Assembly: GCF_003610455.1 (NCBI RefSeq)
Contig: NZ_RAQK01000002.1
Location: 1 to 64,000 of the forward strand
Length of the DNA stretch: 64,000 nt
From: Sulfitobacter guttiformis
Lineage (GTDB): Bacteria; Pseudomonadota; Alphaproteobacteria; Rhodobacterales; Rhodobacteraceae
Direction: 5' to 3'
This document shows positions 8,875 to 62,715 of the stretch, in pieces (the first letter of the stretch is position 1; the number at the start of each line of letters is the position of its first letter). The notes beneath the pieces are model-generated. The model had not been told where the DNA came from. It saw nothing but the letters and a program-made list of their open reading frames with translations, and did no database searches. A program made the position numbers and the translations under genes.

Positions 8875-10147
8875 CCTTAAACCTCCTGATTACCCCAGTA
8901 AGACACACACCTATACCGTTGTCACTATGGGCGAGCTCGGACTGGAATGGACCGGCCGCCCCAACGAATATCGGGATTTCCGGAAGCCATTTTTGAGAGT
9001 TCCTCCAAACCGAACATTCGCTATGGTGCAGAAAAATGTTAAAACGGGCTCTTAGCTGCCGTTCGCCGGCAGGTGCATGAAGGCCCCGTTAATGGCCGTT
9101 TTGGAAGACGGCCAAGTTTCTTAAAATTGAGTTTGCTCTGCAATCGCGTGAGCATCGCCAAGCTCGATGCTGAAGTACGCTCTGGAAAAAGGTGCTCGGA
9201 AATGGGATATCAAGTCACAAAAGCAGTGCTACCAAAACGCATAGGCAAATTTCTGTCCGACATCGATGAAGGATAGGTTTTTCGGACAAACATGCTCCGC
9301 AACAACAAGATGGGTGCCTTACGAGCGAGTAAGCGATGCCGCTATTTCCGTGGTCATAGGGCACTTCGATATTTCAGCTCTAACAAGGCGCTAGTTATTC
9401 GATGCTGGGAGCCCGACAGCAGACCTATATAAGACCAAGAAAATTAGCCCGGTGCCCGAAGTCGCAGATGTTTTGGAGCGCGAATGGTGTCCGTCTATTC
9501 AGCCGTTTACCAGTGTAAACCTTAGTTTAAACGTGATTCAACTGATGCGCACTGATGCAGTGGAATGAGATATGTTTATAAAAATATGGATTCAACAGTC
9601 AAAGGTGACGCACGTGCATGACGTGCAGATAACGCGGGAGTCGCCGAATTATCGGATTGGGTGAGCTCCTATTTATATGACTATATTGCTGCCGGGGTGA
9701 GAAATCATCTCGGCACTTTCTTTGGAAGGTTTGCAGAATTTGACGGAATATGCCCAGAAGTGGACATTGCGTCAGCCATCATACACTTCTTCATATTAAA
9801 ACAAATCAGAAACAATATCTTATAGAGAGAGCGTATTTCTATAGAGCTTCGACAGAACAGGCTTTTAAGTACCAAGCTATCAGACAACTTCAGGTTTCTG
9901 AGCGTGTCGCACAGGGGATGGCCGAAGTAGAATTCGTCGATGATTTCGGAGAATGTCGTTCTGTTCCTCGACGCTTCCCGCTTCTGACAGCGGTTTTTTG
10001 GGGCGATCCTTAGGACGGGCCGAAATGCTGCTTATCGTGACGGTTGCTCAAGCGGCTCTGTGGTCGCTGAAGCGTGCTTAAGCCTCGTGGGGGTAGACTA
10101 TCGGGCAAGCGGGCTTAGGTATAAGTTACACTGAAAAGGAGTACGCC
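8875..10147. other. 1.27-kb gene-poor stretch
   Basis: No gene that I can support. Short open frames at 9073-9276 and 9750-10013 have no recognisable motifs or ribosome sites. 8930-9110 carries degenerate intergenic sequence (cttagctgccgttcgccggc). A small palindrome, GTTTAC/GTAAAC (9505-9520), is present. Probably decayed DNA. Confidence 0.4.
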
Positions 10148-10825
10148 ATGACAGATCGCAAAACACTTTTTATAACCGGCGCATCAAGCGGTATCGGCGC
10201 TGCCACCGCGCGTGCGGCGGTGGCAGCGGGTTGGAATGTCGGATTGATGGCCCGGTCCGAAGACAAGCTCGCCGAGCTTCATGTCGAACTGGGTGACGCA
10301 AGCCTCGTTGTGTCAGGAGACGCCACCAACCTTGCTGCGCAGCAGGGCGCCATCGCTGCAACGGTTGAGCATTTTGGTGGGCTACACGGGTCTTTTGCTA
10401 ACGCGGGCACAGGCCTTGACACGCCGGGGACCGAGAACGGAGATCCGGACGAATGGCGCAAGTTGATTGACCTTAACATCATGGCACTCCTTTATACTGC
10501 GAAGGCGAGCCTGCCGGAGCTGCGCAAGACACGCGGCCACCTCGTGCTGACCGGTTCTGTTGCGGGGAAGGTGCATATACCGGGCTCTATCTACGGCGCG
10601 TCAAAGTGGTTCGTACATGGCTACGGTGGGAATATGGCGCAGGAAATGCGCGAATGGGGTGGACGTTGTACCGTTATCGCGCCTGGCATGGTTGATACGG
10701 GGTTCTTTTCCGAACCTAAGCCGGACAAGCTCAAACCCGAAGATGTAGCAAACGCAGTGATGTTTGCGCTGTGTCAGCCAGAGCGGTCGAACATTCCTGA
10801 ATTGACTGTCATGCCGACCGGCTAA
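10148..10825 (+). CDS. SDR-family NAD(P)-dependent oxidoreductase
   Basis: 225 residues, classical short-chain dehydrogenase. The cofactor motif is TGASSGIG (10-17), the structural NAG is at 85-87, and the catalytic set is Ser137, Tyr149 and Lys153 (SIYGASK). Asp58 in the SGDAT segment fits the conserved adenine-ring Asp. AAAGGAG precedes the ATG at good spacing. Substrate unknown. The gene stands alone, with gene-poor DNA on both sides. Confidence 0.9.
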   Translation: MTDRKTLFITGASSGIGAATARAAVAAGWNVGLMARSEDKLAELHVELGDASLVVSGDATNLAAQQGAIAATVEHFGGLHGSFANAGTGLDTPGTENGDPDEWRKLIDLNIMALLYTAKASLPELRKTRGHLVLTGSVAGKVHIPGSIYGASKWFVHGYGGNMAQEMREWGGRCTVIAPGMVDTGFFSEPKPDKLKPEDVANAVMFALCQPERSNIPELTVMPTG

Positions 10826-11287
10826 CGAGCCCAATCTTGCTGGGATCTGGTATGTCGGTCGGGGGCGGGACTATGCTTGGGCAGATTTTTGAAATTTGCT
10901 GCACCAGAAATATTATTAGATAATTTTAAAGAAACTGCCAATCAATAGCTGGCGGCGTCTCCGCCCATGCCGATCAAGTATGAGGGGCAGTTAGGCGCAG
11001 GAAGCAGCCATGGCGAAATTTGTCCCGGTAACCGACAGAGGCCGTTGCTATAGTTTGCGGCCGATGTCGGGTAAAAACCTATCTTTACCTAAATTCTACA
11101 ATGTAGCGACTGCCTGCTACGACGTTAGAGGCAAATACGTTCAACGAACAAATGGTTTTTAAATGATCTTACGTTTGAGGTCCAATGCCCGAATAAGCTA
11201 TCCAACGTTAGGCTGCCGTCGTTCAGCACATCTTAATGTTCGCGTCCTAGGTAAACGTGACAAATCCAAGTCAGTGAAAATTTATCC
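10826..11287. other. gene-poor spacer before the MCP locus
   Basis: No gene seen in 462 bp. AT-rich patches around 10900-10940 and 11090-11170 could hold the promoter of the lipoprotein-MCP pair, but no clear -35/-10 pair could be assigned by eye. Confidence 0.3.
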
Positions 11288-11593
11288 ATGCCAATTCGAA
11301 ACGTTACATTAATTTGTCTAGGATTGCTTGCATCAGCCTGCACACCAGTTTTGATGCTCGTTACTCAATTAGCGCCATCAGTTGGGAATGTCGGTCTGGT
11401 TATTTCAAAGCCTTGGGACCGATCTGCAAAAAATGTCGTGGCTACATCGAATCTTCACGAAGTTGGACCAATACAGGGATACTTTGGTGTCTTTGTAATG
11501 ATTGAGACCGACGACAGCGTACGGATCCTTTACGATAACGGCGCATGGTTCGTTTTGGATGGGCAAATAATTATGGAGCTTTGTGTAAGTTGA
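11288..11593 (+). CDS. small lipoprotein, hypothetical
   Basis: 101 residues. The N-terminus [20 protein letters not shown] is a lipoprotein signal peptide with lipobox LASAC, so lipidation at Cys18 is expected. The mature chain is about 84 residues with a predicted beta-rich core ([19 protein letters not shown], then [18 protein letters not shown]). Its TGA overlaps the TTG start of the next MCP by 4 nt (TTGA), which suggests translational coupling and a possible role in the same sensory complex (inference). Confidence 0.6.
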
Positions 11594-13290
11594 CCAGCAT
11601 TACAAATATCAGTGAGCCACATTCAACGACTTTACAGCCAGGTTACGGGCTTCAGCTCTTATTGAGTGTTTTTTTAACAGGCGCGCCCGCCGCATCTGCA
11701 TATTTTCTCAATGATGCCGTGAACTGGTTGCCGATCGCGGTTATGAGCCTCTTAACTGGCGCCTTAACACTTCTTGCGCCGCGTCTGACTACGCCCACGA
11801 GCGAATACTTACTTAGTTTCTGCTTTGTTGCGCATTGCGTTTTGTTGACTGTCGCATTTCAAGGACACCCGTGGCAGATTGATACCCACATGCTGTTCTT
11901 CGCGATACTCGCAATTATTTCTACGCTTGGGAGTCCTGGTGCATTATTATTTGGCGCGGCACTGATCGCTGTTCACCATCTCTCATTCAGTTTTCTGCTC
12001 CCAAGCTTGATTTATCCAACTGGAGCCGATTTTGGCAATCTTTCCCGTACGGTTTTTCATGCACTTATCGTGATTGTAGAAACTGGTATGTTACTTTTTA
12101 CAATGAACAAGCGGTTGGCGGCTGATCGTGATGTGCAGTTTCAGAGGGAAACCGCTGAGGCAAACGCGCAGTCTGCTCAGGAAGCCCAACGTATAGCGTC
12201 GGAAAGCCAGATTTCGGTCGAAAGTGTTATGCGCGTTCTTGCGAAACATCTTAACGAGCTCGCAAATGGAGACCTTACAGCTGAAATTAACGAAGATCTG
12301 CCTGACGGCTATGAAAATATACGAACGGATTTCAATGAAACGCTTGGGAAACTAAGTAAAATTATGTCTGACGTCGTCCAAACGTCGGCAAGCATCCAGA
12401 ACGGTGCAACCGAAATCAGCCAAGCGTCAGACGATTTGTCCAATCGCACTGAAAATCAGGCTGCTACGTTGGAGCAAACGGCAGCAGCGCTAGATGAGTT
12501 GACAGCAAGCGTAAAATCCGCAGCTGAAGGCGCAAAGTCAGTTGAGAAAATTGTACTCGAAGCACAGTCAGAAGCTGAAGCAAGTGGGGAAGTTGTAGGA
12601 GATGCCATCGCAGCGATGACGGAAATTGAAAAATCTTCCGAACACATTTCCCAAATTATCCGCGTCATCGAAGATATTGCCTTCCAGACCAATTTGCTCG
12701 CGTTGAATGCCGGTGTAGAGGCAGCGCGCGCTGGAGAAGCGGGCAAAGGCTTTGCAGTGGTAGCGTCCGAAGTGAGAGCCTTGGCGCAGCGGTCTTCCGA
12801 GTCATCAAAAGAGATCAAAGCGCTTATTGGAAGCAGTGCTAAACAAGTAGAACGTGGTGTAGACCTCGTAAGTGGTGCGGGAAGAGCTCTTGGTAGTATT
12901 GCTCAGCGCGTGACACAAATTACCGAACTAGTGCGCAACATAGCGAACGGAACAGCTGAGCAAGCCGTAGGCTTGGGTGAAATTAATATTGGGGTTAACC
13001 AACTCGATCAGGTTACGCAGCAAAATGTGGCCATGGTTGAAGAATCTACTGCGGCAAGCCATACATTGAAACATGATGCTTCGAGGCTTCACGATTTGGT
13101 GCAAGGGTTCAAGACCGGTTCGACCGCAGATGGTCGGTCGTCAGCTATCCACGCAAGAGACCATGAGAACGTACAACATGTTCAATTCAAGCGGGCTAGC
13201 GCTCCTCAGGCTGAGCCGGACTCTTTTCAAAAGCGGGTAAACCAAAAGCCTAGCCATACCTCTATAGACAGTGATTGGCTTGATTTCTGA
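11590..13290 (+). CDS. methyl-accepting chemotaxis protein, multi-TM sensor
   Basis: 566 residues from a TTG at 11590, chosen because it overlaps the lipoprotein stop by 4 nt and has GGAG 11 nt upstream; an ATG at 11545 lies far inside the upstream gene. The N-terminal 160 residues form about six membrane segments without a periplasmic domain, including the motif [12 protein letters not shown]...[12 protein letters not shown] shared by a class of integral-membrane-sensing MCPs. A HAMP-like segment ([12 protein letters not shown]) follows, then the signalling hairpin with [20 protein letters not shown] and [16 protein letters not shown]. It ends in SDWLDF, a CheR/CheB-tethering type of C-terminus (W-x-x-F). 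The signalling domain nearly matches those of the two other MCPs here. Confidence 0.9.
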
Positions 13291-13693
13291 ACTTAAAAAA
13301 GTTGATGCTGAAAAATAGAGAAGTTTAAATTTCTTAATATCCAACATAGCATTGGACATCCCGAAAAAGACAGTTTGTTGATAGGTTCGTCAAAGTGGAC
13401 CTTGGCATACATGAACTAAGGTCCGAAAAGTATGCATTGTGTGGGTTCGTAACTTGAGCGGGGTATGTCAACTATCGAAAATAGACAAAAGGTACAGGAG
13501 TCAGCTTTTGACTGAAACCGGACCTCAGGTTAGCTCTGAGGAGGCACTGATGATCGAGATCGAGTGCTGAACTGCGGCAATTCAGCTGTAAGCCTGAATG
13601 AGCGATATATTGCAACGTCATGAATATCCGCTACTGCGGGGCAGTAAAAAAACCTGAACAAGCATAACAGTCTTGGAAATCGTTTTTTCAGGG
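13291..13693. other. gene-poor spacer
   Basis: About 400 bp between the MCP stop and the IS3 remnant. No coding or RNA feature recognised. It may include the lost end of the IS3 element. Confidence 0.3.
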
Positions 13694-39162: not shown

Positions 39163-41358
39163 ATGCGTGGACGATATTCAGCCCTGAGTGTGCTTGCACT
39201 CTGCGCGGGCGTTGGTGGCGGTGTTTTTCTGGAGCGGTTGTATTTGAACCCTTCGGATATGGCGGGTGATGGCGGACCTGAAATTCTCTATTGGGTGGCT
39301 CCGATGGATGCGAATTTCCGCCAGCCCGGTCCGGGGAAATCTCCCATGGGGATGGACCTGATACCTGTTATGGCGGGGCAGGAGCCCTCTAGCGACCCCT
39401 CTGAGGTAATGCTGTCGGCTGCAGAGATCAACGCCATTGGCGTGCGTACGGCGATTGCACAAATCTCTGATATATCGGGTCGGATCGAGACGGTAGGTTT
39501 TGTCGGCTATGACGAACATCTCACAAGCCATGTTCATACCCGCGTCGATGGCTGGATCGAGGCACTGAATGTGCGTGCGGTTGGTGATCCCGTGCGCAAA
39601 GGGGATGTCCTGTTCGAGATGTTCAGCCAAGTTATAGGCTCATCTTCGTTTGATCTGCTGCGTGCCATTGAGGCAGGGGATAAACGCATCATAGATGCCG
39701 CACGGGGTAAGCTACGCAGCCACGGTATGTCTGACGCACAGATCGCCCGCATCGAAAAAAGTGGCGAGATCGCCCGTAATATTGAAGTGATTGCCACACA
39801 AAACGGTGTTGTCACTGGCCTTGAAGCCGCCGATGGCATGTTTCTCCAACCGGGTGTGCGGGCCGTCTCGCTGACTGATCTGAGCGCTGTCTGGCTTATC
39901 GTTGATGTATTCGAGCGTGATATTGCACGGATGACCGATGACATGCGTGCTGTAGCAACGTTCGAGCATCTGAATGGCCGCACTTTTGAAGGGGTCATCG
40001 ACTACGTCTATCCCGCGCTTGATGCACAGACCCGAACACTGCCCGTGCGATTGCGGTTCGACAACAGCGAGGGGCTGCTGCGCCCCAATATGTTTGGCAA
40101 TGTGAGCCTAATCCCGAACGAGACACGTGTTGCGCTGACCGTGCCGACCGAGGCGATCATTCGCAACGGCGCGGCTGAGCGGGTTATTCTCAAGACGGGC
40201 GAGGGTACTTTCAAACCGCGCCTGATTACCACAGGCCTGCGCGACAGCTTTGGCGGTGGTGGGCGCACGGAAGTGGTACAGGGTCTGGCACCGGGCGAGG
40301 AAGTTGTGGCCTCTGCGCAATTCCTGATCGACAGCGAAAGCGCGCTGAGCGCTGGTTTGATGCGAATGGCGCCGACTGATGAGGTGCCGGCACGCGGGGC
40401 AGGTGAGCTGGTGGCGCTCGATCCCGAAACGCGTATCGCGACGATCCGTCATGCAGCGCTTGAGACGCTGGACTGGCCAGCGATGACGTCCCGTTTTGCG
40501 CTGCGCAGCGATATCGCGCTGGATCGGTTGCAAGTTGGCCAGCAGGTTGCATTCCGTGCAGCTCGTGGCGCGGACGGTCTTCTGAGCCTGATTGAGCTGG
40601 GGTCTGACGACGGGATTGCGGCAACGGGCAGGGGTAAGGTTCTGGCGGTCACGGCAGATGGCAAGCTCACGATGGAGCATGATCCGATCCCCGAACTCGG
40701 CTGGCCTGCGATGCAGATGGACATGGATGTAGCAGGTATCGACGTGGGCGATGTGACATTGGATCAGCCTGTCGAGTTTGATCTGACCAAAGGGGATGAT
40801 GGTCTGTTCACGATTGTCGCTTTGCGCGGTGATGCGATGGGGGGGGAGGCAGAGACGCCTATGGCTGTGAAACCAGACGCCATGATCCCGCCGATCATCG
40901 TGTCTGGCACGATTGATGCGATAGACCCTGCGACAGGCATGGCCACGATCACCCATGGTCCGATGTTGGAAATCGGTATGCCCGGAATGACGATGGGTTT
41001 CGCACTGGATGAAACTCTCGACGCCGAGACGCTTGTCATGGGTACAGAGCTGACGCTAACCTTTGCTCGCCCAGACGGGATGACGATGCTGCTTGCTGCG
41101 GCCGAGCCTGTGGTGCCTCCGATGGAGGTGTCGGGCACGATCAACGCAATCGACTCTGATACTGGTATGGCCAACATCACCCACGGCCCCATGATGGAGA
41201 TAGGGATGCCGGGAATGACTATGGATTTCGCGGTTGATCCCGCTGTTGATCCAGCATCGCTGCCTGTCGGTGAGGAGGTTGTGCTCCAACTCCTCCGCAA
41301 CCCTGACTTCTCAATGACGCTCAAAGGTATCGCACCAGCGGCGCAGGTTGGGCAATGA
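39163..41358 (+). CDS. cusB: CusB-type RND efflux adaptor with four C-terminal CusF-like domains
   Basis: 731 residues from ATG 39163 with GAGGTG just upstream. An N-terminal signal/anchor, then a heavy-metal-binding segment (ILYWVAPMDANFRQPGPGKS, then PMGMDLIPVM), the HlyD-like adaptor core (VHTRVDGWIEALNVRAVGDP, lipoyl and beta-barrel parts) to about residue 405, then four CusF-like modules at about 411-483, 485-555, 577-645 and 653-728. Their metal-site segments are LDWPAMTSRF, LGWPAMQMDM, IGMPGMTMGF and IGMPGMTMDF: Trp is kept in 1-2 and replaced by Met in 3-4. Typical CusB is about 400-500 residues with none or one such module. Periplasmic adaptor to CusA; its stop overlaps cusA by 4 nt. 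Confidence 0.92.
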   Translation: MRGRYSALSVLALCAGVGGGVFLERLYLNPSDMAGDGGPEILYWVAPMDANFRQPGPGKSPMGMDLIPVMAGQEPSSDPSEVMLSAAEINAIGVRTAIAQISDISGRIETVGFVGYDEHLTSHVHTRVDGWIEALNVRAVGDPVRKGDVLFEMFSQVIGSSSFDLLRAIEAGDKRIIDAARGKLRSHGMSDAQIARIEKSGEIARNIEVIATQNGVVTGLEAADGMFLQPGVRAVSLTDLSAVWLIVDVFERDIARMTDDMRAVATFEHLNGRTFEGVIDYVYPALDAQTRTLPVRLRFDNSEGLLRPNMFGNVSLIPNETRVALTVPTEAIIRNGAAERVILKTGEGTFKPRLITTGLRDSFGGGGRTEVVQGLAPGEEVVASAQFLIDSESALSAGLMRMAPTDEVPARGAGELVALDPETRIATIRHAALETLDWPAMTSRFALRSDIALDRLQVGQQVAFRAARGADGLLSLIELGSDDGIAATGRGKVLAVTADGKLTMEHDPIPELGWPAMQMDMDVAGIDVGDVTLDQPVEFDLTKGDDGLFTIVALRGDAMGGEAETPMAVKPDAMIPPIIVSGTIDAIDPATGMATITHGPMLEIGMPGMTMGFALDETLDAETLVMGTELTLTFARPDGMTMLLAAAEPVVPPMEVSGTINAIDSDTGMANITHGPMMEIGMPGMTMDFAVDPAVDPASLPVGEEVVLQLLRNPDFSMTLKGIAPAAQVGQ

Positions 41359-44300
41359 TCGCCGCCATCATTCGCGGCTCGATTGCAAACCGGATCATCA
41401 TCCTTGCGCTGGCGATGATGATGGCCGTGACAGGCATCTGGGCGATCCGTACCACGCCCGTGGACGCGATCCCTGATCTGTCGGATGTGCAGGTGATCGT
41501 GCGCACGCCCTATGCAGGTCAGGCCCCGCAGGTCGTCGAGGATCAGGTTACCTATCCCATCGCCACCGCAATGCTGGCCGTGCCGGGGGCCAGCGACGTG
41601 CGCGGCTTCTCGTTCTTCGGCGATAGCTATGTTTACGTGGTTTTCGAGGACGGCACCGATCTGTATTGGGCGCGCACGCGTGTGCTGGAATACCTCGGCC
41701 AGATCACGGCGAACTTGCCTGAAGGTGTCTCGCCACAGCTGGGGCCGGATGCCACGGGCGTAGGTTGGATTTACCAATATGCTCTGATCGACCGCACGGG
41801 CGGGCATGATTTGGCACAGTTGCGCACGATCCAAGACTGGTTTCTGAAATACGAATTGCAGACCGTCGATGGTGTTTCCGAGGTCGCCACGATTGGTGGC
41901 ATGGTCAAACAGTATCAGGTCGTGGTCGATCCCAACAAACTGCGTGCTTATGATATAACGCTGACGCAAATTCAGGCCGCCATTCAAGGGGCCAACCGCG
42001 AGACGGGTGGGAGCGTGATCGAGATGGGCGAGGCCGAATTTATGGTCCGCTCAACGGGGTACGTCGACGAGATCGCCGATCTGGCGAAAGCGCCGCTGAT
42101 GGTAAACGAACGCGGTGCAGCGCTTACACTGGGCGATGTGGCTGACATCCGGCTTGGACCAGAAATGCGCCGCGGTGTGGGCGAGCTTGATGGCGAAGGC
42201 GATGCAGTCGGAGGCGTCGTGATACTGCGCTGGGGTGGTAATGCGCTGTCGACAATCAAGGCAGTAGAGGTGCGGATCGACGAGCTGCGCCAGAGCCTGC
42301 CGGAAGGCGTCGAGATCGTCACGACCTACAACCGTGCGGGCGTTATCGAGCGGGCCATCGAAAACTTGCAATCAAAGCTCACCGAGGAATTCATAGTCGT
42401 CATTCTGGTCTGCGCTGCGTTTCTGCTGCACGTCCGCTCCTCGCTGGTGATCCTGCTGTCGCTGCCGCTGGGGATCTTTGCCGCCTTTATTATCATGAAA
42501 CTGCAAGGGGTGAACGCCAATATCATGTCGCTGGGGGGCATCGCCATTGCTATTGGCGCGATGGTAGACGCGGCGATTGTGATGATCGAGGCGATGCATC
42601 GGCGGCTGGAGAAGGAAGTTTTGACCAATAAAAACCGGTGGCGCATCGTCACTGAATGCTGTGAGGAGGTGGGGCCTGCGCTGTTCTTCTCCCTCGCTAT
42701 TATCGCAGTGAGTTTTCTGCCCGTGTTTGTGCTGGAAAGTCAGGAGGGTCGGCTGTTCAAACCGCTCGCCTTTACAAAGACATACGCCATGGCCGCCGCT
42801 GCGATCCTGTCGATCACGCTGGTCCCTGTGCTTATGGGCTATTTCGTGCGCGGCTGCATCGTGCCTGAGCATCGCAACCCGCTCAACCGTTTGGTGATCT
42901 TTATCTACCGCCCGTTCCTTGATGCCGCTGTGGCTTGGCCTTGGGCCACGACAATGCTCGCGGGTCTGCTGGTCGCCTCCATGTGGTGGCCGCTGCAACG
43001 TATCGGGAGCGAGTTCATGCCGGAACTGAACGAGGGCGATTTCCTTTACATGCCGTCGCTCTATCCCGGTGTGTCCATCGGCAAAGCGCGTGAGGTGCTG
43101 CAACAGACCGATCGCCTCATCGCCACAGTGCCCGAAGTGCTGACAGTGCATGGCAAGCTGGGGCGTGCCGATACGGCGACGGACCCCGCACCGCTGACGA
43201 TGATCGAGACGACGATCCAGCTCAAACCCGAGGCTGACTGGCGTGAGGGGATGACCATGGATGGCATCCGCGCAGAGTTGGACCGTGTCGTGCAAATCCC
43301 CGGTGTCACGAATGTCTGGATACAGCCGATCAAGAACCGGATCGACATGCTTGCTACGGGCATCAAAACGCCTGTGGGGGTTAAAATATCCGGCGCTGAT
43401 CTGCGTGTGATCGAGCAGATCGGGATCGAGGTTGAGCGGATTGCAGGTGGTATAGAGGGCACAACCTCGGCCTATGCCGAACGGCCCATTGGCGGGCGGT
43501 TTATCGAGATCAACCCCGACCGCGAGGCGGCTGCGCGGTATATGATGAGTGTGCGCGACATTCAGGATGTGGTGCAGACAGCCATTGGCGGGATGCAAGT
43601 GTCGGAATCTGTCGAAGGGCTGGAGCGGTTTCCAATCAATCTGCGCTATCCGCAGGATTGGCGTGACAGCCCCGAGCGTCTGCGCGATCTGCCTGTCGTC
43701 ACGCCGTCGGGCGCGCATATCCCGCTGGGCACACTGGCCGAGATCAAAGTCGTCGATGGACCGGGCATGATCCGCTCCGAGAATGCGCGCCGCACTGGGT
43801 TTGTCTTCATCGACATCGCGGGCCGTGATTTGGGCGGCTATGTCGAGGAGGCGCGTGCTGCTGTAGCGGAACAGGTGGTTTTGCCTGCGGGTTATTCGAT
43901 CACTTGGTCAGGCCAGTATGAGTATATCCAGCGGATGCAGGAAAGGCTCAAACTGGTGGCCCCGGCGACGCTGCTGATCATCACGCTGATGCTGTTCATG
44001 GCGTTTAACCGCGTGATCGAGGTGGGCATCATTCTTGCCGCCCTGCCTGTGGCCCTCGCGGGGGGCGTCTGGTTCCTGTGGTATCTCAGCTTCGATATCT
44101 CCGTTGCTGTGCTGGTGGGGTTCATTGCCCTTGCGGGTGTGGCGGTTGAGACGGCGATTGTGATGCTGCTCTACCTTAACCTTGCATGGGAAAAGCGCCG
44201 TAAACAGGCGGCTGCCGAGCGGCGGGAGATGACCCCGTTGGATGTGGAAGAGGTCGTCTTTGAGGGCGCTCTGCTGCGCGTGCGGCCCAAGGTGATGACT

Positions 44301-44534
44301 GTCGCAACCATCTTCGCGGGCCTCATCCCTATCATGTACGGCACCGGCACAGGCTCCGAGATCATGCAGCGCATTGCCGCCCCGATGATCGGCGGTATGG
44401 CCACGGCCACCGTTCTCACCCTTTTTGTCATTCCGTCGATCTTTGTGATCTGGAAGCGGTTGGCCCTGAGCCGCGTCAACCGCACCTTGCTGCTGGCTGA
44501 GGGTCCGCCCGACGCAGCACTTCCCGCCGAATAA
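41355..44534 (+). CDS. cusA: CusA/CzcA-type heavy-metal RND efflux pump
   Basis: 1059 residues, full length. TM1 with ALAMMMAVTGIWAI, the porter domain opening TTPVDAIPDLSDVQVIVRT (typical of HME-RND), the TM4 motif AIAIGAMVDAAIVMIEAMHR, the second-half repeat GGIEGTTSAYAERPIGG, and TM10-12 (FIALAGVAVETAIVMLLYLN). Together with CusB and CusF it points to export of monovalent Cu(I)/Ag(I) from periplasm and cytosol; divalent metals cannot be excluded from sequence. No outer-membrane CusC gene is in this cluster, so a TolC-type partner must come from elsewhere. Confidence 0.95.
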   Translation: MIAAIIRGSIANRIIILALAMMMAVTGIWAIRTTPVDAIPDLSDVQVIVRTPYAGQAPQVVEDQVTYPIATAMLAVPGASDVRGFSFFGDSYVYVVFEDGTDLYWARTRVLEYLGQITANLPEGVSPQLGPDATGVGWIYQYALIDRTGGHDLAQLRTIQDWFLKYELQTVDGVSEVATIGGMVKQYQVVVDPNKLRAYDITLTQIQAAIQGANRETGGSVIEMGEAEFMVRSTGYVDEIADLAKAPLMVNERGAALTLGDVADIRLGPEMRRGVGELDGEGDAVGGVVILRWGGNALSTIKAVEVRIDELRQSLPEGVEIVTTYNRAGVIERAIENLQSKLTEEFIVVILVCAAFLLHVRSSLVILLSLPLGIFAAFIIMKLQGVNANIMSLGGIAIAIGAMVDAAIVMIEAMHRRLEKEVLTNKNRWRIVTECCEEVGPALFFSLAIIAVSFLPVFVLESQEGRLFKPLAFTKTYAMAAAAILSITLVPVLMGYFVRGCIVPEHRNPLNRLVIFIYRPFLDAAVAWPWATTMLAGLLVASMWWPLQRIGSEFMPELNEGDFLYMPSLYPGVSIGKAREVLQQTDRLIATVPEVLTVHGKLGRADTATDPAPLTMIETTIQLKPEADWREGMTMDGIRAELDRVVQIPGVTNVWIQPIKNRIDMLATGIKTPVGVKISGADLRVIEQIGIEVERIAGGIEGTTSAYAERPIGGRFIEINPDREAAARYMMSVRDIQDVVQTAIGGMQVSESVEGLERFPINLRYPQDWRDSPERLRDLPVVTPSGAHIPLGTLAEIKVVDGPGMIRSENARRTGFVFIDIAGRDLGGYVEEARAAVAEQVVLPAGYSITWSGQYEYIQRMQERLKLVAPATLLIITLMLFMAFNRVIEVGIILAALPVALAGGVWFLWYLSFDISVAVLVGFIALAGVAVETAIVMLLYLNLAWEKRRKQAAAERREMTPLDVEEVVFEGALLRVRPKVMTVATIFAGLIPIMYGTGTGSEIMQRIAAPMIGGMATATVLTLFVIPSIFVIWKRLALSRVNRTLLLAEGPPDAALPAE

Positions 44535-44560
44535 TCAACCCAACCTGAAAGGCCTATCTC

Positions 44561-44917
44561 ATGAAAATTCTCTCGCTTACCCTCTTCGCTCTGATGCTAA
44601 GCACACCCTTGGCGATGGCACAGACCAACCACTCCACGATGGACCACTCAAATATGGACCACTCCGCTATGAGCGCCGAAAACATGGATGGTGCTGTGCA
44701 TACCAAAGCCGTGGTGAACGCCCTGGGCGATGGTACCGCCAATATCAGCCACGAGCCGATCCCCGAAATCGGTTGGCCCGCCATGACGATGGACCTCGCC
44801 TTGCTGCCGGATGCGCAGATGTTGGGCGATGTGGTGGCCGGCGATACAGTCACGCTGATGCTGATCAAGGGTGACGACGGGATGTATTCCATCGCTGGCA
44901 TGATGGCTGCTGAATGA
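44561..44917 (+). CDS. cusF: periplasmic copper chaperone CusF
   Basis: 118 residues. Signal peptide MKILSLTLFALMLSTPLAMA; a His/Met-rich linker (NHSTMDHSNMDHSAMSAENM); then a CusF domain with His in SHEPIPEIGWPAMTMDLAL, i.e. the H...W..M.M Cu(I)/Ag(I) site with the cation-pi Trp intact. It delivers metal to CusB. 26 bp after cusA, followed by a terminator hairpin, so the operon ends here. Confidence 0.92.
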   Translation: MKILSLTLFALMLSTPLAMAQTNHSTMDHSNMDHSAMSAENMDGAVHTKAVVNALGDGTANISHEPIPEIGWPAMTMDLALLPDAQMLGDVVAGDTVTLMLIKGDDGMYSIAGMMAAE

Positions 44918-47109: not shown

Positions 47110-47928
47110 ATGAAAAGCCTTTTTAAACTTGGCAGTAAACCCAGCAATAAAAAACTGGTTTTTCTTCATGTGCCAAAGACAGGCGGGCAGTCGGTGCGCC
47201 AGATGTTGCACGATGCCTTTGGTGAAGCGGCTATTTGTCCTGCACGCTCAACCGAGGAACTATGCACCTATTCAATGGCGCAGCTTAACGAATATCGCGT
47301 GCATGCGCCGCACGGCGACTGGTCAACACTTGATGCCGTGTCAGGTCCAAAGATGGTATTCACCGTCTTGCGTGATCCGCTGGACCGCATTTTGTCCTAT
47401 TATTTTTATGTCGCGGACAAGGCCGAGAAGATGAGCAAACAAGATCTGAGCCTTTCCCACCATCAGGGCCTCAATGCCGTTCATTCAATGAGCCCTGATG
47501 AATATTTCTTTGAAGGCCCCCCGCATCTGCGTGCGTTTATCGCCGATACTTACGATAACTTTTACACCTACTATTTTGGCACAAGACGGATGGATGGCCG
47601 TCGCAAGCTTAACAATCTAATGCAACGCGGCATGCATGACATTCATCATCTGGTCGATGCGGCCCTATCCAATATTGACGCTTTGGATAGGGTGTATACG
47701 TTGGACGAATTGCACTTAATCCAGCAAGATATAGCTGACATTTCAAAAACGCCGCTGAAAGGCGCGTATTACGCCAATAAAAACATCTCTAGCTTGCCAG
47801 CCGACCGGTTGGATAGGTTGCGCGCGCGAGGTGCGTCAGAAGCGGTTATAAACCTACTGTATTCGTACTCAGAGCATGACTACAAAATCTGGAACGCTGT
47901 GTGCGCAAAACGAAAGCAAATGCCATGA
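47110..47928 (+). CDS. sulfotransferase-family protein
   Basis: 272 residues. The 5'-phosphosulfate loop is VFLHVPKTGGQSVRQM (17-32) and the 3'-phosphate motif is TVLRDPLDRILSYYFY (85-100), as in Sulfotransfer_2-type enzymes that move sulfate from PAPS to sugars or other hydroxyls. Cytoplasmic; no signal or TM. The acceptor is unknown. It overlaps the next gene by 4 nt, so the sulfotransferase and the dioxygenase are made together and may act on the same product. Confidence 0.85.
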   Translation: MKSLFKLGSKPSNKKLVFLHVPKTGGQSVRQMLHDAFGEAAICPARSTEELCTYSMAQLNEYRVHAPHGDWSTLDAVSGPKMVFTVLRDPLDRILSYYFYVADKAEKMSKQDLSLSHHQGLNAVHSMSPDEYFFEGPPHLRAFIADTYDNFYTYYFGTRRMDGRRKLNNLMQRGMHDIHHLVDAALSNIDALDRVYTLDELHLIQQDIADISKTPLKGAYYANKNISSLPADRLDRLRARGASEAVINLLYSYSEHDYKIWNAVCAKRKQMP

Positions 47929-48704
47929 GAAATGCGGCTCAACTCGACGCTGGACAACGCGAGGCGTTTCGCAAAGATGGCGTTTTACTGCTCAAAGATT
48001 TTGCACCGAAACGGGCGGTCATTGCAGTTTTACGGCAATATAACATCTGGCGGAACACGGTTATTATGCAGGGCGCTGATGACAAAACACGCGGTGATAT
48101 TGCGCGGGCACGTCAGGCTATGGACGTCACAGAAGGGGAAGAGATTGCGCCATTGCGGAAACTCGCTCACGATCTGGGAGGCGCGCTTTTAGGGCCAGAC
48201 AACGTACACGAAGTTGAGGCCCAACTGATCGGATGGGCACCGTCAGGACCTGCGTGGAAGCCCACCTGGCACATTGATTGGGTAAACAAGCACCTCAGAC
48301 TGAAGACAGAGGACCAGTTTCCGGGGTTCCAACTGTTGGTCGGCTTTCCCTTAACTCCCGCTCTGCGAGAAGACCGTGGCAATCTATTTGTTTCACCAGG
48401 CTGGCATACCGAGATTTGCAACACGTTTCGTCAATCGCCCACCCTGCGCGACCCGCTGGAAGCAATCAGCAAGGGCATAGCTTCTCAGGTGCCGTGGGGA
48501 ACGCCTCAACAGTTGCTCGTCGCGCCTGGGGATGTCATTTTAACACATTCCTTGATTCCGCACGGCGTGGCGGAGAACAAGGGCGCGGGTTTCGCCGACA
48601 AGCTGTATTTCCGTCTGGCACATAAGACAGCTATTCATCGTGGCGGTCGTGATGCTTTGGATACGCCCTGGCGCAACTGGCAAGGGATGCAGGACGGCGG
48701 CTGA
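47925..48704 (+). CDS. phytanoyl-CoA dioxygenase-like Fe(II)/2-oxoglutarate oxygenase
   Basis: 259 residues from ATG 47925 (a 4-nt overlap favours this over the GTG at 47901). The N-terminus DAGQREAFRKDGVLLLKDF is the usual PhyH opening. The facial triad is His116-x-Asp118 (WHIDW) with a distal His in ILTHSLIPHGVAEN (His208 or 213); the 2-oxoglutarate Arg is likely Arg230 (KLYFRLAHK). It should hydroxylate a small molecule. It is convergent with the radical SAM gene, with only 4 bp between the stops. Confidence 0.82.
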   Translation: MRNAAQLDAGQREAFRKDGVLLLKDFAPKRAVIAVLRQYNIWRNTVIMQGADDKTRGDIARARQAMDVTEGEEIAPLRKLAHDLGGALLGPDNVHEVEAQLIGWAPSGPAWKPTWHIDWVNKHLRLKTEDQFPGFQLLVGFPLTPALREDRGNLFVSPGWHTEICNTFRQSPTLRDPLEAISKGIASQVPWGTPQQLLVAPGDVILTHSLIPHGVAENKGAGFADKLYFRLAHKTAIHRGGRDALDTPWRNWQGMQDGG

Positions 48705-48708
48705 CTAT

Positions 48709-51123
48709 CTATCGTGCTCCGGGCTTGCGGGCTGCTGACACGTCTCTGACCTCGTTGTCCAATTCGTCGCGAAAATCCCATGACCGCAGATCATAGGAAG
48801 ATTCTGCGGTGTCCATCTCATAGGCCTGCTGCTCACTTCGCGAGTCCCGTTGACCAGCATATCGTGATTCACGGTACCAACACTCCTTACACTGCGACCA
48901 TTCGTTATCTGTGCCGAAATCGCCGCGGCACTGTACCATGTCTTTGGAGTTCCACACCTGCGCAAAGCTCTGACCCTCGCCGACACGGCCCACCGTAGCC
49001 GCATAGGGCCGCGCGCAGGTGACGACGCTTTGATCGGCCATCAACACGCCTGTTCTATGAAAATAAATACAGCGATCAGGGGGGAGGGCATCCGGCTGCG
49101 GTTGGTCAGGCTTGATATCGATTGTCGCAGCAAGCTGGCTGAGATTCAGCGGCGCGCGCGTCATCAGCGCCGATTGCATCAAAGCATCGCCGATAGGATC
49201 TGATACCCCATCCGACAGGCATGGCACCAGAGAATCCTGCTGCTCCTCCCAAATCGGTGCGCTTTGAGCGCGCTGGGAAGTGAAGGCGTAATTCATCGCC
49301 TTGATCACATCGGGGTCAGGGACCCTATCTGCGGCTTCGGCGACGATCGGGGGGCAGTCTCCGGGGATATTATGTTTGGCCATCGCTCTATAGGCCTGCG
49401 CCAGATAATGGTTGGCTATTTCAGGACTGGTTAAAAGGGTCTCGGTCGCTTGTTTTTCAAAAAAGATCAACAGATGGCGGGAGTAAACCAGATCAGGTTT
49501 GAACTGTGCAACGGCTTCGATAAATGATGCAAATTCGGCAATGTTGTTGCGCTTCAGGGTGAAGGATACCGAAAGCTTTGGGCGGCGTGCAAGTTCGGTA
49601 GAGCGGCGCAGTCTGTCGTAATGGCGCAACGCCTCGACCACGGTAACCAACGATACATTCCCGCGGTTGGCGGCCATTGTTTCCGACAGATAGCCGTCAA
49701 TCGAAAACATTATCGTATCGACCCACGGCATATGTTCGGCCCGCAATCTTTTTGTCAGTAAAAGACCATTCGTGACAATTGATACAAGGACATTGTATTG
49801 TTTCGCTTTCTCAAAAACGCACTCCCAAAGTTGGTGAGATACGAATGTCGGCTCTCCCCGTCCAACAAGGCAGATAGAGGTGAGATACGGAAACACCTCA
49901 TCCGCCATCAAGGCGAAACCTTCGGGGGTAAACCGTTGAAGACGGTTGTGGAAGTCGTGGACTTCCGCTGTTCCGTGCGAACTGCAGTGGCTACACGTCA
50001 AATTGCAGCCAGCTGTCAGCTCGATGGACAGGGATTCGGGATAGTGGGACAAAGCTGCTTTTTGCCCTCCCTCGCTTTGTATTACCATCGCGCGGGTCTG
50101 CTCTTTTGCAGCGTTGTAATCGGCCAGTATAGTTGGCCCAGTATCTGCTTGTTGCGGTGCCACGTCGAACCGGTTCACGAAAATTGTCCCGACGCCGTGC
50201 GCTGATGCGTCAATGCGGAAAAATACAGTGGCATCAGGCGGAAATTCAGGCAGTGCAAGCCTCAGTGTCTCAATGTGATTGCGTCGCTTGGGCTTGAAGC
50301 AAACCGTCCGGTCCTCACTGAATTCTTGATGCGCCATCCGGTAGTAGAGCTTGCTATAGGCATAACTTTGGCTGCCCGCCCACGTTAAACTGAACAAAAT
50401 ATCGAGATCGGCATAGACCTTTGTTGCGGACAGATTGAATGGGCCGCGCTCGACGCTGGACGTGGAAATTTTCGGCACGGTAGGATCAACAGTTTTTGTT
50501 GAAAGGTTTCGGCCAATTTTCGTCTTGGATACAAGCACCCGGAGGCCGTGCCTCCTTGTTTGAAACTTGGCCAGAGTATCGACGAAAGTCGTGTGGATAG
50601 AGTTCGTGACATCGCCTTTAGGCGGATCCTCTCCAATCAAGGCTACCTCGCCAGATCTCGCAAAATAGGCCCAGTTGATCGCGCTGTTCTCCAAGTCACT
50701 CCGACCCAGACATATTGTGGGTACAGATACGTCCCCTAACGCATTCTTCGCACCTTCGTGCCATGGCAGATCCGTCAACGTCATCATCAGTAGACCTTTA
50801 AACGGATACGTCTCTGACGCTGATAAAAAACTACTGATATCCGTTTGGTTTATTCTGTGGGCCGGATCGTGTAGCCGACATTGCACAGCGACAAAGCCTT
50901 CATTATTCCGAAGCGTCGCGACAAGCTGGACATCTTGGATTGACAAAGCACAGCTGTTTTCCATTGCCCAATCCTCAAATAGCTGAACGCGTTCATAGCT
51001 TGCTAATTGGACGGGGTCATTGCGCAGATAGGCCAGCGAAAGGCTTGTGAAGCGGGCATCCATATTCAACAGTGGTACAAATGTGCCGCGCGTAAACTTT
51101 GCAATGGAAGAAAGAACTGTCAA
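48709..51123 (-). CDS. radical SAM/SPASM protein with N-terminal Mrr-like domain
   Basis: 804 residues. Residues 25-165 resemble the Mrr-type nuclease-like domain at the N-terminus of large putative helicases (LFEDWAMENS, DVQLVAT, GFVAVQCRLHDPAHRINQTD, ISSFLSAS, then SDLENSAINW). The catalytic QxK is QCR here (Gln81, Arg83), so cutting activity is doubtful. 230-330 is a probable beta-sandwich. The radical SAM core has Cys373, Cys377 and Cys380 (TAGCNLTCSHC) and a GGE-like LVGRGEPT. Further Cys at 685, 703, 732, 745 and 748 form a SPASM-like auxiliary cluster region. It may modify a peptide or small molecule. Convergent with the sulfotransferase-dioxygenase pair. Confidence 0.82.
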   Translation of the reverse strand: MTVLSSIAKFTRGTFVPLLNMDARFTSLSLAYLRNDPVQLASYERVQLFEDWAMENSCALSIQDVQLVATLRNNEGFVAVQCRLHDPAHRINQTDISSFLSASETYPFKGLLMMTLTDLPWHEGAKNALGDVSVPTICLGRSDLENSAINWAYFARSGEVALIGEDPPKGDVTNSIHTTFVDTLAKFQTRRHGLRVLVSKTKIGRNLSTKTVDPTVPKISTSSVERGPFNLSATKVYADLDILFSLTWAGSQSYAYSKLYYRMAHQEFSEDRTVCFKPKRRNHIETLRLALPEFPPDATVFFRIDASAHGVGTIFVNRFDVAPQQADTGPTILADYNAAKEQTRAMVIQSEGGQKAALSHYPESLSIELTAGCNLTCSHCSSHGTAEVHDFHNRLQRFTPEGFALMADEVFPYLTSICLVGRGEPTFVSHQLWECVFEKAKQYNVLVSIVTNGLLLTKRLRAEHMPWVDTIMFSIDGYLSETMAANRGNVSLVTVVEALRHYDRLRRSTELARRPKLSVSFTLKRNNIAEFASFIEAVAQFKPDLVYSRHLLIFFEKQATETLLTSPEIANHYLAQAYRAMAKHNIPGDCPPIVAEAADRVPDPDVIKAMNYAFTSQRAQSAPIWEEQQDSLVPCLSDGVSDPIGDALMQSALMTRAPLNLSQLAATIDIKPDQPQPDALPPDRCIYFHRTGVLMADQSVVTCARPYAATVGRVGEGQSFAQVWNSKDMVQCRGDFGTDNEWSQCKECWYRESRYAGQRDSRSEQQAYEMDTAESSYDLRSWDFRDELDNEVRDVSAARKPGAR

Positions 51124-52388
51124 AGCAGCATATCCTTAAATGGGGTATTTAAATATCTGAACTGAAAAATCGGTGAGTAGAGCGGGGTGTATTTGGTGCA
51201 GCATCGCAAACACTATACCTATGCTGCATTAAAAAGATACTGAACAGTCTGATGTTTAACTGAGGCTTTTCTGTTTCGCTTACGCCGCTACGCCCGATTT
51301 TTAAGGACTTCATCCAAGTTTGACTTGGCTTCAGTTGACGGAATATTCCTCATGGGCTCCGCCACGCAGCGATTGTTGAACCAATCGGCAGATTCGAAAA
51401 TGGTGTATCCACCGCTTCAAAACTACGCAATGGCCTGTATCTGTGGATTACTTCACGTTTTGACGGACATATACCAGACCGATCCAACGCCGCCCAACAG
51501 TCAAGAGCGTTGCAATCTACCGTGGGTGCAGAGCGAAGTCTGATGGTGGCATTCGGCTGCTCTGCCGGTCGACGATCAGGCAAGCGAAGTTCACATTCTT
51601 TGTTTGGAAAGATCGGTTGCGATGCGCAGTGTTCTGACCTCAATGGATGGTAAGGGGCTGTTCCTTAAAAACTTTTTCTTTGAAAAGTTAAGGTGCGCCC
51701 TGAAATACTAAGCGTCTATCCCTGACTGATTTGGGCGTCCGCTTTATTCTCCCAAGGATAGTGATCTGGCATACGCAGCGAATGACCGCCCTCCACCTTT
51801 GGTGTCGTGAGTTGCTCACAGCCTATAGCTACAATATGCAGAAAGCCGCGATTCTGCAGCGATCTGTACCCCACAAGGTGAGTTGCAATGACAAAGAAAT
51901 TGACAAGCCTGCGGGATGTATCCCTTGGTTTCAAACTTCTAAATAATTTTTCACCGAAGGACTGACCATCAAAAATATGATAAGAAGTACTAAAATATCA
52001 CTTTTAACCACAGAGTTTTGGCACGTTCTATTACATATATATGTAATTTATTTGACTGAGTTCTACTCTTGCAGGAATTCGCAGACACCACCGCATTCGC
52101 TAGCCAGTCAAAATTTAGCCTATCAACAACTAGCGATACAATGTGAGACTTTGAGCGCCAATTTCGCTATGAACTCGACGACCGTTTAGATATGGCTTCT
52201 CTACAACTTGACGAGACTTATTAACCCATCTTATCCATGCCATGTGCAATAGTTATGATGTAAAGAGTGGGTTTATTCTACTGATTTTTCGGGGCGACGG
52301 CCACACCGACTGGCAGCGCGCTAATCGTGTTTGGCTAGCGATACAACACATCCGAAAAAGCAAAGAGCGCTACCGACAGTTTTTAGGC
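51124..52388. other. 1.26-kb gene-poor stretch
   Basis: No supportable gene on either strand. AT-rich parts (51160-51260, 51930-52070) alternate with decayed sequence. Open frames at 51325-51543, 51350-51643 and 51977-52189 lack motifs and ribosome sites. Confidence 0.35.
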
Positions 52389-52418: not shown

Positions 52419-53318
52419 TCATAACGAGAGTTTGCGGGCTTGAGTCTCATATTCTTCGTCGTCAGTTTGGGCAAGCGCGTCGTGCGCGGAGCCCTCAAAT
52501 TGCTCAAGCGCTCGACGCGCTTCTGCCGGTGTTTGGTTCCCAAGCGATGAGTGCGGCCTGACGTTGTTGTAATCGTATCGCCAGAGTGCCAGCTTACGAC
52601 GGGCGTCATCCAACGTATCGAAGATTTCCTCATTCAACAGCTCGTCGCGCAGACTGCCATTGAAGCTTTCTATGAAGCCATTCTGCTGGGGTTTGCCGGG
52701 GTCGATGTAATGCCAATCAACGTCGTTATCACCGGCCCATTTTAGGATCGCACGACTGGTAAACTCCGTGCCGTTATCACTGACAATGCAGGCACGCTTT
52801 CCACAAATACGGACAAGCGCGTCAAGTTCCCGCGCGACTCGAGCGCCCGAGATGCTGGTGTCAGCCACCAAGCAGAGGTTCTCGCGGCAACAATCGTCGT
52901 TTACAGCAAGCATGCGGAACTTGCGTGACGCACCAAATGTATCAGACACAAAATCCAGCGACCAACGTTCACCTGGCCGCAAGGGCACCGGTATGGGCGT
53001 TCGTGACCCACGTGCGCGCTTGCGACCCCTTCGCCGCCTGACGCCCAGCTTTTCGTCAGTATAAAGCCGATACAGCTTTTTGTGGTTCATGATCATTCCT
53101 TTGCGTTCCAGAAGCACGCCGATCCGGCGATAACCGAACCGACGCCGCTTGCTGGCAATCGCTTTCATCTCTTCGCGAACTTCTGGATTATCCGGCGGCC
53201 GATCACGCCGGACAGTCTTGGGATCGACACCGACAAGCCTACACGCCCGACGTTGCGAGATGTCGTGATCCCGCATTGCCTTGCGTGCTGCAGCCTGTCG
53301 CACATTCGGTGTCGTCAA
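52419..53318 (-). CDS. IS3-family transposase OrfB
   Basis: 299 residues. N-terminal HTH-like part ([32 protein letters not shown]), then the rve-type DDE domain: SLDFVSDTF (Asp), [15 protein letters not shown] (Asp) and [17 protein letters not shown] (Glu), ending with [16 protein letters not shown]. It overlaps orfA by 4 nt, as expected for a -1 programmed frameshift that makes OrfAB. Confidence 0.95.
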
Positions 53319-53578
53319 CTCTTTCCCAGCAAATCTTTCAACACAACATTATCGAGCATCGTGTCGGCCAGCAGGCGCTTCAGCTTAGCGTTCTCATCTT
53401 CCAGCGATTTAAGGCGGTGGGTATCAGAAACGTTCATGCCGCCATACTTGGCTTTGAACTTGTAGAACGACGCAGGGCTGAGGCCATGCCTGCGGCACAC
53501 CTCAGCTGTCGGCATCCCAGCTTCTTGTTCTTTGATCATTCCGATAATTTGGGCTTCAGTAAAACGGCTCTGTCGCAT
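53315..53578 (-). CDS. IS3-family transposase OrfA
   Basis: 87 residues. An HTH ([40 protein letters not shown]) followed by a leucine-zipper-like helix ([17 protein letters not shown]). It binds the element ends and joins OrfB by frameshifting. The ATG is 67 bp inside the right inverted repeat. Confidence 0.94.
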
Positions 53579-60846: not shown

Positions 60847-62715
60847 ATGAGCAGCGAAAATTCAGTCACCTTTACCGTCCGCGAGATGAATTGTGGCTCT
60901 TGCGTAGGTCGTGTCGAGAAGACGCTTCTGGCTGTCCCGGGTGTGCAGAAGGCGACAGTCAACCTTGCCGCTGGGACTGCCACTGTGGTGGTCGCCGATT
61001 TAGATATGGGTTTGATCGCTACAGCACTTGATACCGCAGGGTATCAGGCGGAGCTGTAAACTTTCCTGTTTTGCGTTGAGAATATGTCCTGTGAGTCCTG
61101 TGTTGAGCGCGCCCTTGCAGGCGTTCCGCATGTGGTATCCGCATCTGTAAACCTGCCCCAGAAAGAAGCGACCGTTCAGGCAATTGGCATCTCGGCTGTG
61201 TCGATTGCGCAGGCGGCAACCGCTGCGGGGTATCCTGCGCGTGTAATCACGGATCAGGGCGGAGCCGGTGTTCCCACGTGCGCAAGGCGGCAGCAGCGGC
61301 ACTTCTCAAAACCATGACGCTGGTTACGGCGCTTTTGACGATGCCTGTGTTCATTCTCGAAATGGGCAGTCACATGGTCCCCGCACTGCATCACTTGATC
61401 ATGAATGCGCTGGGCATGGGGCTTAACTGGCGTATCCATTTTGTGCTGACCACTATCGTGCTGGCATGGCCCGAACATAATTTCTATTTCAAAGAATTTC
61501 CCGCATTGCTCAAAGGTGCGCCCGATGTGAATTCGCTGGTGGCTCTTGGATCCTCTGCGGCATAGGGATTTTCGAGTGTGGCATTGCTCGCGCCGCAGCT
61601 TTAGACAGCTGGCAAACGCGTTGTCTATTTCGAGGTAGCGTCGGTCATCGTCACCCTCATTTTGCTAGGACGGTTTTTTGAGGCGCGGGCGAAGGGGCAG
61701 GCGTGGTGGGCGACACGGTCAACGGAACCGGCGCGCTGGTTTTCCGCGCGACAGCCGTGGGCCGCGATACCGTGCTGGCGCAGATCATCCGCATGGTAGA
61801 AGAGGCGCAGGGGGCCAAGCTGCCCATTCAGGATCTCGTGAACTGCATCACGCTTTGGTTCGTGCCTGCGGTGATGGGCGTGGCGACAATGACGTTTCTG
61901 ACATGGCTGCTGGTTGGCAGCAATCCCGCGCTCAGCTTTGCGCTGGTCGCGGCTGTTGTCGTACTGATCATAATGTGTCCTCGCGCGATGGGTTTTGCCG
62001 CGCCAATGTGATCATGGTGGGTACGGGGCGCGCGGCCGAACTGGGCGTGCTGTTCCGGCGCGCCGATGCGTTGCAGTCTTTGAGCAGCGTTCAAACGGTG
62101 GCTTTTGACAAGACCGGCACGCTGACAAAGGGCCGTCTGGAACTGACTGATCTAACAGTGACGGACGGATTCGAGGAAGCCGATGTTTTGCGGCTGGTAG
62201 CCTCAGTTGAGGCTACATCAGAGCATCCGATTGCGACGGCCGTTCTGCGGCGCGCTGAACAGTACGGGCTGTCCCTTGCACCCGTCGAGGCGTTCAACTC
62301 CGTCAAGGGCTACGGGGTCAGAGCCGTCATTGAGGGTCGCAAAGTCCTCGTTGGGGCCGACCGCTTCATGGCCCGCGAAGGCATCTCACTGGACGGTGTC
62401 AGAGACGCGATAAACGCTGCGCCCGCATTGACCCATGCGGATGTTGGCGTGGCGATCGACACCGGTACTAATTTTGCGATCGAGGCGGCAGATGTGGTGC
62501 TGATGTCCGGCGATCTCGAGGGCGTGGTGAACACGCTGCACATCATTAGGCGATCCATGCGCAATATTTGTCAAAACCTGTTCTGGGCGTTCGGGTATAA
62601 TGCCCTTCTCATCCCCGTCGTTGCGGGTGTGTTTTGTTCACTGTTCGGGTCAATGTTGTCGCCTGCACTGGCGGACGGGGCGATGGCGATGTCGAGTGTA
62701 TTTGTTCTCTCTTAG
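60847..62715 (+). pseudogene. copA: Cu(+) P-type ATPase (CopA) pseudogene
   Basis: Pieces in family order: HMA domain 1 (MNCGSCVGRVEKTLL), TAA at 61057, HMA domain 2 (MSCESCVERALAG), a frameshift near 61270, first TM pair (TLVTALLTMPVFILEMGSHM), TM3-4 with TAG at 61563 and a second TAG near 61606, [20 protein letters not shown], a large deletion removing most of the actuator, TM6 with [10 protein letters not shown] (CPC is CPR), a frameshift, the phosphorylation site AFDKTGTLTKG, the nucleotide domain SEHPIATAVL, a deletion to INAAPALTHADVG (GDGIND lost), and the C-terminal TMs. Non-functional many times over. Confidence 0.88.

Follow-up and report, generated by a model that had tools for sequence, protein, structure and literature searches.

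A radical SAM enzyme of Sulfitobacter guttiformis carries a Type ISP nuclease domain that has lost its catalytic residues

What does the fold of a restriction nuclease do at the head of a radical enzyme? The question is raised by a gene of Sulfitobacter guttiformis (Rhodobacteraceae) in a stretch of 64,000 nucleotides, positions 1 to 64,000 of contig NZ_RAQK01000002.1 (hereafter the window). Its open reading frame (ORF), at 48709..51123 on the minus strand, is real and open and encodes 804 residues from a TTG start; the sequence AAGGA, nine bases 5' of that start (51133..51137, minus strand), is a likely ribosome-binding site, judging by sequence only. The protein could also start at the Met at residue 21, common to this protein (P0001) and its two full-length homologues (P0002 and P0003), which would shorten the first helix; a promoter scan returned 7 sites against 5.5 expected. 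As established by computation, the domain order of the fusion protein is a dead Type ISP nuclease domain, a linker, an all-beta module, a radical SAM core and a twitch-like C-terminal domain. Pfam places Mrr_cat_2 at residues 34-155, with a score of 64.7 bits (cut-off 22; E 1e-17), Radical_SAM at residues 367-502 (E 6e-8) and SPASM, which stays below its cut-off (18.7 versus 21.5), at residues 694-749. The same 804-residue architecture is present in P0002 (93% identity) and in P0003 from Sulfitobacter sp. HNIBRBA2951 (77%). An earlier, sequence-only reading of this DNA had proposed that a Mrr-like domain is fused to a radical SAM enzyme, and had named misassembly as one of the findings that might undo the idea; the Pfam domains and the two homologues with the whole architecture bear out the fusion and rule out misassembly as its source.

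The N-terminal domain (residues 21-165; 50629..51063, minus strand) descends from a Type ISP restriction-modification nuclease and has the N-terminal Mrr-family PD-(D/E)xK fold of these enzymes, as seen in the Pfam match, the match to LlaBIII, the fold and a residue-by-residue comparison. The sequence-only reading had recognised a degenerate Mrr/PD-(D/E)xK domain resembling the restriction-endonuclease-like domain of large putative helicases: the Mrr_cat_2 match and the fold comparison agree with it, the helicases turn out to be the Type ISP enzymes, to whose extreme N-terminal end the domain corresponds, and three catalytic positions are changed. The comparison used 15 Type ISP-like sequences, taken from one Phaeobacter plasmid and from 14 genomes of the family to which the window belongs; 11 of the sequences lie in open frames of 1614-1716 residues and four in shorter ones (566, 417, 303 and 532). 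Pfam was run on L067 and L072 of this set, L068 and L072 share 98% identity in A4, and the folding alignment (A5) covered the 25 viral loci except L094 and L115. On the minus strand, codon 26 (51046..51048) encodes Thr where 14/15 of these sequences have Glu, codon 66 (50926..50928) Gln where all 15 have Asp, and codon 83 (50875..50877) Arg where all 15 have Lys. All three changes (E26T, D66Q and K83R) are present in the three fusions, P0001-P0003, none of which retains the catalytic Asp, the QxK Lys or the helix Glu of a Type ISP nuclease; the replacement of the QxK Lys by Arg83 had been noticed from the sequence, but it is just one of the three catalytic positions lost. From the general PD-(D/E)xK motif, we take the E26 and K83 columns to be the two catalytic positions other than residue 66. 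This last residue aligns, without a gap, with an Asp of LlaBIII, position 78 of its chain. The latter probably corresponds to Asp78 of LlaGI, a close homologue of LlaBIII, described as the catalytic aspartate in the LlaGI report (PMC4872093). K21, D62, K93 and D115 of the Type ISP-like sequences have also been lost. Among those Type ISP columns that are near-invariant and lie no further than residue 162, P0001, the only fusion scored, leaves unchanged 1/10 of the charged ones, 19/27 of the hydrophobic or Gly ones and 5/6 of the polar ones (Fisher p 0.002 for charged versus hydrophobic/Gly, leaving out four near-invariant columns past residue 162, namely 165, 166, 171 and 172, all changed). Because the charged columns are mostly changed while the others are mostly kept, the loss is not one of general decay.

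The rest of the protein places it in a rare and uncharacterised family of twitch-type radical SAM enzymes. The core (residues 360-600; 49324..50046, minus strand) has the radical SAM fold and a CX3CX2C motif (49984..50007, minus strand) whose Cys373, Cys377 and Cys380, the expected ligands of the 4Fe-4S cluster that binds S-adenosylmethionine (SAM), are Cys in 92, 92 and 91 of the 92 family proteins. The sequence-only reading had these three right but counted five later cysteines where there are nine (418, 435, 590, 635, 685, 703, 732, 745 and 748). Of the nine, only Cys685, Cys703, Cys745 and Cys748 never vary among the proteins that have the region (76/76, 76/76, 76/76 and 77/77); they lie in a twitch-like domain (residues 685-790; 48754..49071, minus strand) and, being four in number and spaced as in BtrN, are predicted to hold a single auxiliary 4Fe-4S cluster. 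This region is absent from 13/92 family proteins, and two relatives, P0005 and P0007, pass the Pfam SPASM cut-off (26.7 and 26.0) below which the fusion protein falls. A split and permuted form was seen at three loci (L005, 5788-7432; L006, 9968-11581; L007, about 9659-11525), where the gene for a separate twitch protein of about 120-140 residues (C-x17-C ... CX2C) directly precedes or overlaps that for a radical SAM protein without the C-terminal twitch part. The all-beta module (residues 223-330; 50134..50457, minus strand), which is confidently modelled, matches no Pfam family, one of five pieces giving a chance match (E 0.025); most relatives have one copy, and by eye there are two in P0005 and three in P0023 and P0024. 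The module's sole PDB profile match, the mitochondrial ribosomal protein uS15m (E 0.006-0.011), was taken as chance, and the Foldseek match of the whole model to xylanase 1us2 (E 4e-8, root-mean-square deviation 25) was too poor for use. For the radical SAM family, no close relative with a known structure was found. The core does match TIGR04317, a tungsten-cofactor oxidoreductase maturase (E 1e-22, score 80.8 versus a cut-off of 380), and the twitch radical SAM family NF033640 (E 5e-15, 55.5 versus 170), without being a member of either. In comparison with BtrN and other twitch-domain radical SAM enzymes, the fusion protein has a long beta-module and the N-terminal domain in front, and its sequence similarity to them is low.

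The fusion gene is tied to genes for a sulfotransferase and a PhyH-type oxygenase. A Sulfotransfer_2 gene (47110..47928, plus strand; Pfam and homologues) and a PhyH gene (47925..48704, plus strand; ATG at 47925, the longest ORF starting from GTG 47901), the latter overlapping the stop of the former by ATGA, converge on it with 4 bases between the ends. P0007 has, C-terminal to a relative of the radical SAM enzyme, a part that shares 45% identity with the PhyH neighbour along 249 residues (E 1.6e-69), though the Pfam PhyH model fails to reach E 0.01 on it. This type of PhyH protein was found in 1/388 sampled genomes of the family, the present one, and neither in G098 or G1032 nor in any of the four other genomes with relatives. 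The Pararhodobacter genome (L006; its contig is also G098:C67) has just two sulfotransferase matches, both less than 7 kb from the radical SAM gene, one scoring 20.9, slightly under the Pfam cut-off of 22, and the other 23.0, slightly over it. They belong to a 21.6-kb locus that also has GT1 and GT61 glycosyltransferases, an ABC ATPase and a hexapeptide transferase. At the same locus, the ORF after the sulfotransferase (12616-13629) looks ATP-grasp-like by eye and has no Pfam match. A Stf0-type sulfotransferase adjoins the relative in Haliea (L003), and an acyltransferase is found by that in Rhodoferax (L002). Sulfotransfer_2 includes carbohydrate sulfotransferases. Given this, and because such links are supported by Pfam in 4/9 loci, the window included, a sugar or surface glycan is the likely substrate. 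Pfam was applied to chosen ORFs in L002, L003 and L006, the neighbours in L004, L005, L007, L008 and L009 being read by eye; L005 has, by eye, GalE/GalU-like genes. Weighing against a glycan substrate, no glycan gene was seen by eye in L004, L007, L008 and L009, and the sole sulfotransferase match of G1032 is on a different contig.

How might these parts work together? Cys373, Cys377 and Cys380 would hold the cluster that splits SAM, and the resulting 5'-deoxyadenosyl radical would abstract the hydrogen of a C-H group in a sugar, cyclitol or glycan, with the beta-module aiding in holding the substrate. The four-Cys auxiliary cluster would accept the substrate electron, and for this reason the net reaction would most likely be a two-electron oxidation as in BtrN, epimerisation being the next choice. 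The PhyH protein would hydroxylate, and the sulfotransferase sulfate, the same substrate or its product, while the former nuclease domain, no longer cutting, would offer a fold for docking or assembly, as is thought for the inactive PD-(D/E)xK domain of RPB5. We regard this scheme as rather probable. The sequence-only reading had suggested binding or scaffolding in place of cutting, and scaffolding fits. A more specific proposal is tentative, with a probability of roughly 0.4: the nuclease domain of a phage-restricting Type ISP enzyme, stripped of its active site and with its core preserved, was co-opted for docking or assembly by a radical SAM enzyme that acts on a sugar or glycan together with the PhyH and sulfotransferase proteins.

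Several features of the N-terminal domain would suit a passenger, left by a recombination that placed the 5' end of a restriction gene before a radical SAM gene, and translated with no function beyond solubility; this explanation concerns the N-terminal domain only and is compatible with any reading of the substrate. The domain matches the extreme N-terminus of Type ISP proteins, it is known in a single clade of three proteins, and an upstream frame must remain open for the enzyme even if what it encodes is useless. It also evolves faster than the catalytic parts and the insert at 601-684, with 63% identity between P0001 and P0003 over residues 21-165, compared with 93% for the radical SAM part (336-600), 87% for the twitch region and 71% for the insert; the beta-module has 82%. 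A useless leader does not readily account, however, for a loss so targeted to charged columns, or for the alignment of the three fusions without a single gap across residues 21-165. Moreover, the linker (residues 166-222; 50458..50628, minus strand) is conserved worse than the domain (39% over 166-224), so that the latter is better kept than the linker and worse kept than the insert. In a neutral simulation with a simple, arbitrary mutation model, substitutions in residues 21-165 were more conservative than expected (z 2.7, against 0.7 to 2.3 in six other regions), a result that is no more than suggestive of constraint. On balance we think a mere passenger unlikely, though less unlikely than either of the two alternatives that follow.

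One of these holds that the N-terminal domain, though it no longer cuts, has kept the ability to bind DNA or RNA and directs radical chemistry there, or that the protein is a viperin-like antiviral enzyme, in line with the tie to nucleic acid or defence that the sequence-only reading had imagined. PADLOC restriction-enzyme models do match the N-terminal domain (3.3e-20) and its viperin models the core (8.2e-16), matches that reflect homology and are not evidence of a defence role. Yet PADLOC finds nothing in the neighbouring genes for a PhyH-type oxygenase and a sulfotransferase, some relatives adjoin glycan genes, and the core match to NF038283 (viperin, pVip; E 1e-13) scores 51.2, far under its cut-off of 180, so that the protein is not a member and its identity as a viperin or defence gene was rejected; the C-terminal four-Cys domain also lies outside the viperin match (367-544). 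Residues 21-162 of the fusions hold 9-13 Lys and Arg, compared with 13-20 in the 15 Type ISP-like sequences, with overlapping net charge. A nucleic-acid or defence role is very improbable, and the surroundings of the gene lend the earlier suggestion no support; the sequence by itself is compatible with DNA binding. A maturase of ribosomally synthesised and post-translationally modified peptides, like many SPASM/twitch enzymes, with the N-terminal domain or the beta-module binding the leader, is easier to envisage and still decidedly unlikely: the enzyme has a sulfotransferase and a PhyH-type oxygenase as partners, joined by glycosyltransferases in Pararhodobacter, and among the 25 of 42 NCBIfam matches listed none reaches its cut-off, no search for precursor peptides having been made.

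Each part of the fusion is already known; their combination was absent from the papers searched. With the Type ISP enzymes LlaBIII and LlaGI the protein shares the N-terminal Mrr-family nuclease domain, but it has no Pfam match to the superfamily 2 helicase, coupler, methyltransferase or recognition domain, and all three catalytic positions are changed. Inactive PD-(D/E)xK domains that retain the nuclease fold in a new role, with catalysis gone, are described for RPB5 and RecC (PMC1185551); both belong to nucleic-acid machines, whereas in the fusion the domain accompanies a radical enzyme whose role is probably metabolic. Among the open PubMed Central papers listed, none is on such a fusion, and to that extent the sequence-only reading was justified in calling the fusion undescribed. 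If the proposal is true, an inactive PD-(D/E)xK domain on a metabolic radical enzyme would mean that scaffolds from restriction enzymes can be put to use in unrelated chemistry, a defence component having turned into a metabolic one. The radical SAM family, which varies its accessory parts (the beta-module in one to three copies, a fused PhyH-like part, a split-off twitch domain), is itself a place to look for new chemistry, with glycans as the probable substrates.

The fusion is rare and its members form a single clade. A search of about 5.8 billion proteins, in which the 7,996 candidates sharing most words were scored, gave 21 relatives, and a profile search (7,993 candidates scored likewise) brought the family set to 92 proteins, including the query; BLASTP found the N-terminal domain in 3/92. 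A search with the segment 20-185, confined to proteins between about 440 and 1,400 residues long, a range that hides the longer Type ISP enzymes, returned P0002 and P0003 only. In a midpoint-rooted tree of 91 radical SAM cores (one protein was left out, its core being shorter than 200 residues), the three fusions group together at 100/99 in the drawn tree, P0004, which lacks the N-terminal domain, joins them at 100/100, and P0006 and P0007 come next (88/84). The simplest reading is a single gain of the domain on the stem of the trio; P0004 comes from a 3.3-kb contig and is possibly cut short. No genome with P0002 or P0003 was found among 62 genomes of the genus, 394 of the family, plasmids or the contig list (which may omit near records).

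A source for the domain was sought nearby. When one full Type ISP sequence and the N-terminal parts of two others were compared with the window by tblastn, they matched the N-terminal domain only (E 2e-29 or lower; next match E 0.21), and a decayed Type ISP gene was rejected. The genome itself (G000) has no second match to the fusion protein at E 0.001, and the N-terminal part of its sole other Type_ISP_C protein (L075 4442-7798, contig C1, 1118 residues) is by eye unlike the Mrr domain of the fusion. IMG/VR held no viral carrier of the fusion protein or of its radical SAM family; 163 plasmid records match part of the protein, none covering 80%, and the DNA of the three genes matches none. The locus may have been acquired, since its GC content in 1-kb steps is lower at 45-54 kb (46-56%) than at 40-45 kb (59-61%) or 54-59 kb (54-59%), and an IS3-type insertion sequence (ORFs, with similar elements annotated as IS3 family transposase) lies upstream of the fusion gene at 52419..53578 (minus strand). 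Metal-resistance genes flank the locus at 41355-44917 and 61678-62715 of the window: a CusA/CzcA-type pump (from the annotation of similar DNA), CusF (Pfam) and a piece of a P-type ATPase (by eye).
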